Shown here: positions 4,825-10,111 of the stretch, piece after piece
How the letters are laid out: each line of letters opens with the position of its first letter
Position numbering within the stretch: position 1 is the first letter of the stretch
NCBI GenBank assembly: GCA_016218345.1
Contig: JACREH010000116.1
Location: forward strand, 1 to 53,071
Direction of reading: 5' to 3'
DNA: 53,071 nt
DNA from: Gammaproteobacteria bacterium
GTDB lineage: Bacteria; Pseudomonadota; Gammaproteobacteria; Acidiferrobacterales; UBA6901
Made by a program: the position numbers and the translations under genes
Notes under the pieces: model-generated
Database searches by the model: none
The model's input: the letters and a program-made list of their open reading frames with translations, nothing else
Told to the model about the DNA's origin: nothing

Positions 4825-4834
4825 TGACACGTAC

Positions 4835-4924
4835 GGAGGGGTGGCCGAGCGGTTGAAGGCACCGGTCTTGAAAACCGGCAGGGGCTTACGCTCCTCGTGG
4901 GTTCGAATCCCACCCCCTCCGCCA
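4835..4924 (+). tRNA. tRNA-Ser (anticodon UGA)
   Basis: A class II tRNA with the long variable arm expected of serine tRNAs. The acceptor GGAGGGG (4835-4841) pairs with CCCCTCC (4914-4920), followed by discriminator G and an encoded CCA (4922-4924). The anticodon stem CCGGT/ACCGG encloses the loop CTTGAAA, giving anticodon TGA at 4869-4871. The T arm carries GTTCGAATCC. It reads UCA and wobble codons. Confidence 0.97.
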
Positions 4925-4965
4925 ATTTCTGCGTAGCGGGAAATGGCATATTCATAGACATGAGA

Positions 4966-5103
4966 ACCTGGAGGGTGAGAATCCCGCCGTGCAGGATGCA
5001 CAAGTGCCGTGAAGTACAGGATGTACGGGAGTGGCCTCCCTCTCCACCAATTATCTCCAAGGACGGAGTGTATGCCGCGGGAGCGCTGGACGCGCGGCGC
5101 TCC
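4966..5103 (+). ncRNA. Array of GGA-loop hairpins, candidate CsrA/RsmA-binding RNA
   Basis: Five short hairpins, each exposing GGA in the loop, follow the tRNA: ACC-TGGAG-GGT (4966-4976), GTGC-AGGAT-GCAC (4989-5001), GTAC-AGGAT-GTAC (5014-5026), CTCC-AAGGAC-GGAG (5055-5068) and GCGC-TGGAC-GCGC (5083-5095, nested in a longer GGAGCGC/GCGCTCC stem to 5103). The second and third contain CAGGATG, the repeat element of CsrB-type RNAs that bind CsrA. I see no convincing promoter or terminator, and no protein-coding pattern. It may be co-transcribed with the tRNA. It could also be a repeat element without RNA function. Confidence 0.35.
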
Positions 5104-5128: not shown

Positions 5129-5154
5129 TGTCATTTCGACCGAAGGGAGAAATC
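5129..5154 (+). repeat. Left hairpin of the GIY-YIG cassette
   Basis: Folds as a 5-bp stem ATTTC/GAAAT, tandem G-A mismatches (GA/GA), a 2-bp stem CC/GG and a GAA loop. The 3' side contains GGGAG (5145-5149), well placed (7-nt gap) as ribosome binding site for the ATG at 5157, so folding would hide the ribosome site. Confidence 0.85.
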
Positions 5155-5156
5155 CG

Positions 5157-5448
5157 ATGTTTTCAGAAAAGTGTTACTACGTGTATCTGCTGACGAATCA
5201 GAACAACCGGGTAATGTACGTCGGAATCACAAATGACCTTGCGCGACGGGTTTATGAGCATAAAAACAAACTAGTGAAGGGGTTTACCGAAAAAATACAA
5301 CGTAAACAAGCTTGTCTATTTCGAGGAAACGAATGACGTGCAGGCCGCGATTACGAGGGAGAAGCAGATCAAAAAATGGCGCCGGGGGAAAAAGAACAAC
5401 CTGGTTGTGAGCGTCAATCCTGAATGGAGGGACCTGAACATTGAGTAA
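5157..5448 (+). pseudogene. GIY-YIG domain nuclease, frameshifted
   Basis: A single-domain GIY-YIG protein (about 96 residues if repaired) of the UvrC-like/YhbQ-like small family. The first frame reads MFSEKCYYVYLLTN...MYVGITNDLARRVYEH, giving the YVYLL (for GIY) and YVGIT (for YIG) strands and the catalytic Arg of LARRVYEH. Frame is lost in a run of six A's at 5290-5295. With five A's it continues as EKYNVNKLVYFEE and then REKQIKKWRRGKK, carrying the catalytic Glu and the basic KQIKKWRR helix, to the TAA at 5448. As written the first frame stops at 5336. This could be decay, a sequencing error, or slippage-controlled expression. Confidence 0.82.
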
Positions 5449-5453
5449 TTCTA

Positions 5454-5479
5454 GATTTCTCGCTTCGCTCGAAATGACA
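5454..5479 (-). repeat. Right hairpin of the GIY-YIG cassette
   Basis: Inverted copy of the left hairpin. Read on the minus strand it has GC/GC in place of the left copy's CC/GG inner stem: the only two differences form one compensated base pair. The change removes the GGGAG that serves as ribosome site in the left copy. Confidence 0.85.
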
Positions 5480-10011: not shown

Positions 10012-10111
10012 CCGCCATGGATGGCGGCCGCTTCGGGCTCCTGCCCTTACGCGGCATTACTCCGTCCATGGAGGGCAGAAGTGCGGAATCCGCAAACGCG
10101 CCATCCCTGGC
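10012..10111. repeat. Cluster of short palindromes between the cytochrome gene and prfB
   Basis: Four inverted repeats: CCGCCA-TGGA-TGGCGG (10012-10027), CTCC-GTCCAT-GGAG (10060-10073, nested inside CTGCCC...GGGCAG 10041-10078), TGCGG-AAT-CCGCA (10082-10094) and GCCA-TCCC-TGGC (10100-10111). The first exposes GGA on the plus strand; the second and fourth expose ATGGAC and AGGGAT on the minus strand. It resembles the arrays at 4966 and 52936 but is less regular. Confidence 0.4.

Follow-up and report, generated by a model that had tools for sequence, protein, structure and literature searches.

A covarying two-hairpin repeat with invariant GGA loops at a tRNA-Ser gene and across Gammaproteobacteria

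Does the string of GGA-loop hairpins 3' of a tRNA-Ser(TGA) gene specify an RNA that sequesters CsrA/RsmA, or did it arrive there by another route? The hairpins lie at positions 4966-5103 of the window, the whole 53,071-nt stretch analysed here; it corresponds to contig C82 in a MAG estimated at 80.6% completeness (1.85 Mb, 122 contigs; G000). The first-pass annotation had counted five such hairpins in these 138 nt; three perfect A(N)GGAN hairpins and one variant were recovered, and the fifth was not found (Table 1). The two CAGGATG loops that it had placed in perfect 4-bp stems, GTGC/GCAC and GTAC/GTAC, are both present, and two copies of this motif within 42 nt occur at just two places in the assembly, this locus being one. 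Dinucleotide-preserving shuffles of the 138-nt stretch contained a mean of 0.0045 perfect A(N)GGAN hairpins and never two or more in 2000 trials, indicating that the three observed did not arise by chance. The window as a whole contains 12, against 3.4 expected. The stability of the folded 138-nt RNA was unremarkable (z = -1.8 and -1.2), and in a longer context other pairings displaced hairpin 1 or hairpin 2 of unit 1; folded alone, unit 1 gave exactly the expected two-hairpin structure (-13.7 kcal/mol).

Table 1. Positions of the tRNA gene, the repeat units and their hairpins in the window
Feature	Position	Strand	Details
tRNA-Ser, anticodon TGA	4835-4924	+	ARAGORN; Rfam tRNA 62 bits
Degenerate copy of a tRNA-Ser 3' end (GGGTGAGAATCCCGCC ... 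CCTCCCTCTCCACCA); contains unit 1	4960-5051	+	
Unit 1 of the dispersed repeat	4989-5036	+	R1 69.2 bits; alignment A2, pair counts
Hairpin 1 of unit 1	4989-5001	+	GTGC-AGGAT-GCAC
Hairpin 2 of unit 1	5014-5026	+	GTAC-AGGAT-GTAC
Unit 2, type B, diverged	5055-5102	+	Alignment A1 with L014, L020, L026, L028; only 7.7 bits to R1
First hairpin of unit 2	5055-5068	+	CTCC-AAGGAC-GGAG
Second hairpin of unit 2, variant	5083-5095	+	GCGC-TGGAC-GCGC
Third unit copy in the window	10026-10073	-	R1 34.3 bits, E 2.4e-6

A DNA search of 41 genomes found homologues of the locus in other genera and elsewhere in its own genome. The homologues define a unit of ~49 nt, in which hairpin 1 is followed by a linker of ~4 nt and an outer stem (consensus GYCGC/GCGRC; GCCGC/GCGGC in unit 1) that encloses GRAG, hairpin 2 and RRGA. 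The locus contains two copies of a dispersed, non-coding palindromic repeat that is widespread in Gammaproteobacteria. To count copies, a covariance model, R1, was built from 13 sequences; 22-150 candidates were scored per genome, so that all copy numbers are lower bounds. R1 matched at least 93 sites in G007, at least 52 in G034 and at least 52 in G000 itself. Matches were found in 54 of 274 gammaproteobacterial genomes sampled over the class, and among the candidates scored there were none in family f4 and genus g3. In the complete genome G180, at least 63 copies, most with the same score, are spread around the chromosome. The third copy in the window lies between co-directional genes and is antisense to both, and some units elsewhere carry another unit inserted within them. 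G007 also has tandem arrays of four to six units with a period of ~53 (L219:9150-9700 and L220:4950-5500), which sit inside a larger repeat with GTGTTGAAAAAC / CTTTTTCAACATCC ends. The consensus unit had no match in plasmid and phage collections, the unit matched no Rfam 15 family at threshold, and a literature search with unit-like sequence strings returned only unrelated papers among the matches listed.

We examined the conservation of the structure in three sets of sequences. Paired positions held pairing bases in 98.2% of cases in the 13 seed sequences, in 98.7% in 50 distinct G000 copies and in 98.8% in 73 distinct class-wide copies, the last with 176 double changes. The observed covariation score was reached by 0 of 500 shuffles in each set, and pairing fell below 60% when partners were slid along; model-fitted alignments lean towards the model structure and the shuffles ignore relatedness, and the structure is secure because it is formed by many different stem sequences. 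The absence of covariation in relatives, which would have counted against the first-pass proposal, is contradicted by these double changes. The loops behave in the opposite manner to the stems. GGA was kept in 73 of 73 loop-2 and 72 of 72 loop-1 sequences read, and the loop follows the code C-A(N)GGAX-G. In it the first A and the C-G closing pair hardly vary, A and GGA may be separated by one base of any kind, and any base can follow GGA, with a preference for T. The internal loop of the unit (G25 R26 / G45 A46) could form tandem G-A pairs. The constant loop on a changing stem noted in the first pass is real, and this organisation is under strong structural constraint throughout the class. GGA is also the commonest loop trinucleotide among the long-stemmed intergenic hairpins of G000 (24.7%, versus 8.8% in genes).

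If an RNA were the selected product, most copies would be expected in the sense orientation, and sense copies would be expected to be better kept; neither was seen. Between co-directional genes, called by a simple codon model in draft genomes, G000 had 13 sense units against 16 antisense and G007 had 6 against 8, giving 19 versus 24 in this sample of 43 units (p = 0.54), in which copies of one tandem array are not independent. The scores of antisense copies were not below those of sense copies. Units avoided divergent regions, with 21 units in convergent and 6 in divergent regions (p = 0.006). All intergenic GGA hairpins of G000 behaved similarly (123 sense and 114 antisense; 88 convergent versus 41 divergent, p = 4e-5). 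Random orientation, avoidance of divergent regions, nesting and tandem arrays are together the behaviour of a dispersed DNA repeat. We consider it probable, at roughly 60%, that the units are a palindromic repeat that spreads at the DNA level and that came to lie in a duplicate of the tRNA-Ser 3' end by chance or through site preference.

Such a repeat would spread in both orientations, and its copies would survive where they do least harm, at gene ends and not in divergent promoter regions. It would most likely be a non-autonomous element that is recognised as folded single-stranded DNA, by way of its loops and the adjacent GRAG and RGA bases; conserved loops with variable stems are what a loop-reading single-strand DNA enzyme could select. 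Transposases of the TnpA-REP and IS608 types are documented to make contacts with loops (PMC8266576). Against this reading, the units of G180 show no replichore strand bias, though some single-strand transposons do show one. REP elements of the GTAG and CGTC super-families (PMC3733652) resemble the unit in being dispersed, intergenic, palindromic and plentiful between convergent genes, and the unit is likewise a high-copy extragenic palindrome. It differs from them in having two unequal hairpins, invariant GGA loops on freely changing stems, and no unpaired GTAG or CGTC end tag, the consensus having GRAG next to hairpin 2. Mobilisation as a REP element by a RAYT (TnpA-REP) transposase would suit the short, high-copy intergenic palindromes, the GRAG tetranucleotide 5' of hairpin 2, the single Y1_Tnp gene in the own genome and the importance of loop contacts for some TnpA-REP proteins (PMC8266576). 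We nevertheless regard it as improbable, since the GTAG tag is missing and no unit lies within ~1.5 kb of any of 15 Y1_Tnp genes, which mostly belong to the longer, RAYT-like type; GTAG-REPs flank their RAYT gene. Moreover, the unit-rich genomes G034, G024 and G055, all incomplete, gave no Y1_Tnp match, and units were absent from G013, which has four Y1_Tnp genes. The mobilising enzyme was not found in this search around Y1_Tnp genes. In G141, identical inverted units flank 0.6-1.5 kb. The possibility that the units are terminal inverted repeats of a transposon was rejected on the basis of the one such segment read, L278, which consists of short ORFs and other hairpins and has no transposase-like ORF.

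The invariant loops also raise the question of CsrA binding. In the solved RsmE complexes the best ligand is an ANGGAX hexaloop placed directly on a stem, with weaker binding when N is absent (PMC4005645); PMC6692469 quotes RUACARGGAUGU as the E. coli CsrA SELEX consensus and (A/U)CANGGANG(U/A) as the RsmE consensus. The unit loops match this code position by position. A transcript across a sense unit would likely bind CsrA, judging from its sequence, and such binding would be incidental or secondary for an element that spreads as DNA. A different view is that the units are dispersed CsrA-binding RNA elements. Selection on CsrA/RsmA binding would preserve their A(N)GGAX loops and let the stems drift with compensatory changes, and the units would act in transcripts as decoys, as UTR sites or as part of the life cycle of the element itself. 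Each loop position agrees with the CsrA/RsmE code, a dimeric protein would be well served by the two sites in a unit, and the same argument has been made for TwoAYGGAY and the reverse complement of Bacillaceae-1 (PMC4333381). GGA hairpins also lie just 3' of csrA and tRNA-Ser(GCT) in several genera. The csrA gene is present in 49 of 54 unit-bearing genomes, but also in 185 of 220 unit-free ones, so that the association is not significant (p = 0.28), and csrA-bearing relatives without any units occur. Our search did not find csrA in the 80.6%-complete MAG; it was present in all six family-mates searched. With neither a sense bias nor better-kept sense copies, selection on CsrA binding is a possibility that we hold only tentatively. 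It accounts for the loop code better than a DNA repeat does, and for the orientation data worse; a DNA repeat leaves it a coincidence or a side effect that the loops match the CsrA code exactly.

We compared the locus with dedicated sponge RNAs, because the first-pass annotation had likened its organisation to that of CsrB/RsmZ. The likeness holds for the fixed GGA loops on changing stems and for the repeated CAGGAUG-type loop hairpins, but it does not extend to a dedicated sponge RNA at the locus: CsrB and RsmZ are single dedicated sRNA genes, whereas the unit is a dispersed repeat that occurs in both orientations and has no terminator. The Rfam models of CsrB and RsmX/Y/Z gave no match at the gathering threshold or up to E = 5. 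As noted in the first pass, a scan of the region found no terminator-like site. One weak promoter-like match was found at 4955-4982 on the + strand, and the region has two such matches when both strands are counted together, against 0.7 in shuffles. A CsrB/RsmZ-like sponge co-transcribed with tRNA-Ser would draw on the four GGA- or TGGA-loop hairpins that lie within 115 nt and on the six unit-bearing tRNA-Ser loci, all of which are in the tRNA sense. These six loci are not independent, however, because a shared junction explains their orientation. Most homologous loci have, between the tRNA and the hairpins, a terminator-like hairpin that carries a T-run, and this locus has only two intact units, the second diverged, without a convincing promoter. 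Copy number, random orientation and the lack of a link to csrA argue against a dedicated sponge as the main reading, and we consider it very unlikely.

Two other Rfam families share the loop pattern, and both were proposed by Gardner and Eldai to bind CsrA on the grounds of their loops (PMC4333381). The reverse complement of Bacillaceae-1 RNA (RF01690) shares the layout of the unit, a first hairpin and then an outer stem around the second, with AGGAY in the loops of both; it comes from Bacillaceae rather than Gammaproteobacteria, its stems and internal loops differ, and the minus strand of unit 1 scored 20 bits against it, below the threshold of 35. TwoAYGGAY RNA (RF01731), reported from Gammaproteobacteria among others (PMC2864571), has two AYGGAY-loop hairpins with reported tandem G-A pairs (PMC4333381), such as the unit may form. 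No R1 unit scored as TwoAYGGAY (threshold 43 bits), the model had no match in the own genome or in six unit-bearing ones, and the best match in G180 (34.4 bits) fell at a different dispersed repeat. Five sub-threshold matches in G180, at 2466211, 1946964, 1613978, 451215 and 1612910 (L288-L292), are one dispersed two-hairpin repeat within a longer conserved repeat, which suggests that TwoAYGGAY relatives may be mobile.

We then considered the tRNA-Ser setting. The duplicate at 4960-5051 has 83% identity to the stretch 3' of tRNA-Ser(CGA) in L012; the similarity of the duplicate to the window's own tRNA end is weak. At the L012 locus, by contrast, the 3' copy reproduces the end of the local tRNA and its flank without a mismatch. 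The window is a degenerate case of a tRNA-Ser 3' duplicate, recognised mainly through its homologues, and the same layout occurs in records named Acidiferrobacterales, Candidatus Muproteobacteria and Gammaproteobacteria. Units lie 3' of tRNA-Ser in L012 (Ser-CGA), in L013 and L021 (Ser-GCT, next to csrA), in L016 (Ser-GGA) and, in another family, in L254, where the tRNA-Ser is cut by the contig end. At these five loci the tRNA 3' end is duplicated, and one or two units lie next to the duplicate or within it; in L012 and L021 the duplicate also includes the tRNA's own 3' flank. Unit 1 of the window likewise lies in a decayed tRNA-Ser 3'-end duplicate, a site of hairpin arrays in many lineages.

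A wider arrangement, which we call the tRNA-Ser echo, consists of tRNA-Ser, a terminator-like hairpin, a reverse-complement copy of the tRNA 3' end, a hairpin array and a direct 3' copy. It was observed in L239, L240, L245, L249, L250, L251 and L021, and at 4960-5051 of the window, in several unrelated gammaproteobacterial families and with several anticodons. The arrays of L239, L240, L249, L250 and L251 often have GNA loops and sometimes GGA. At the csrA loci L005, L010, L013 and L021 (G030, G024, G034 and G016), of several genera, tRNA-Ser(GCT) follows csrA and GGA-loop hairpins, some of them decayed, lie just 3' of it. In the sX4 sRNA (RF02223), a part resembling tRNA-Ser precedes a stretch of ~65 nt whose last letters are GGGUGAGA, a sequence that also stands just before unit 1; the sX4 model has no GGA hairpins. 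It matched 4828-4980 at 42.4 bits against a threshold of 70, mostly over the tRNA part, and was rejected as an explanation, there being no R1 unit at the loci of sX4 relatives. The 3' part of the Rfam sX4 model may be the start of the tRNA-Ser echo. A pseudo-tRNA, based on an acceptor-like TGGAGGG/CTCTCCA pairing in the window, was rejected because the pairing is not conserved in homologues. The rtT RNA of the E. coli tyrT operon was considered as a precedent for repeated tRNA 3' ends, and a literature search for it in that role yielded nothing useful.

The array had been described as running into a GIY-YIG cassette. The analysis confirmed the cassette but showed a disrupted reading frame: the ORF at 5129-5479 (Pfam PF01541, E 4e-11) is frame-shifted mid-way. 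It is flanked by 26-nt inverted repeats, TGTCATTTCGACCGAAGGGAGAAATC, that look like REPs of the CGTC type, a type said to be without a dedicated enzyme (PMC3733652).

The proposal of a dedicated CsrA/RsmA sponge thus gives way to a covarying repeat with invariant loops, randomly oriented and dispersed, with no terminator and no association with csrA, which is found in about a fifth of the sampled gammaproteobacterial genomes, outside the Rfam 15 thresholds and without REP tags. The surprise is that freely changing stems and loops that keep the CsrA recognition pattern occur together in a DNA repeat present in both orientations. The finding is a warning that some two-hairpin GGA-loop "RNA families" may in fact be DNA repeats of the dispersed kind, for which the orientation of copies with respect to genes offers an inexpensive test. 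It is conceivable, at well under even odds, that the units are a class-wide family of mobile CsrA-binding elements, selfish or domesticated, whose two hairpins are near-optimal CsrA/RsmA ligands, which would place tens of potential decoy or regulatory sites in each genome, with tRNA-Ser 3' ends as a favoured home and TwoAYGGAY and Bacillaceae-1 possibly of the same kind. Mobile repeats would supply new CsrA sites, provided that CsrA does bind the units.
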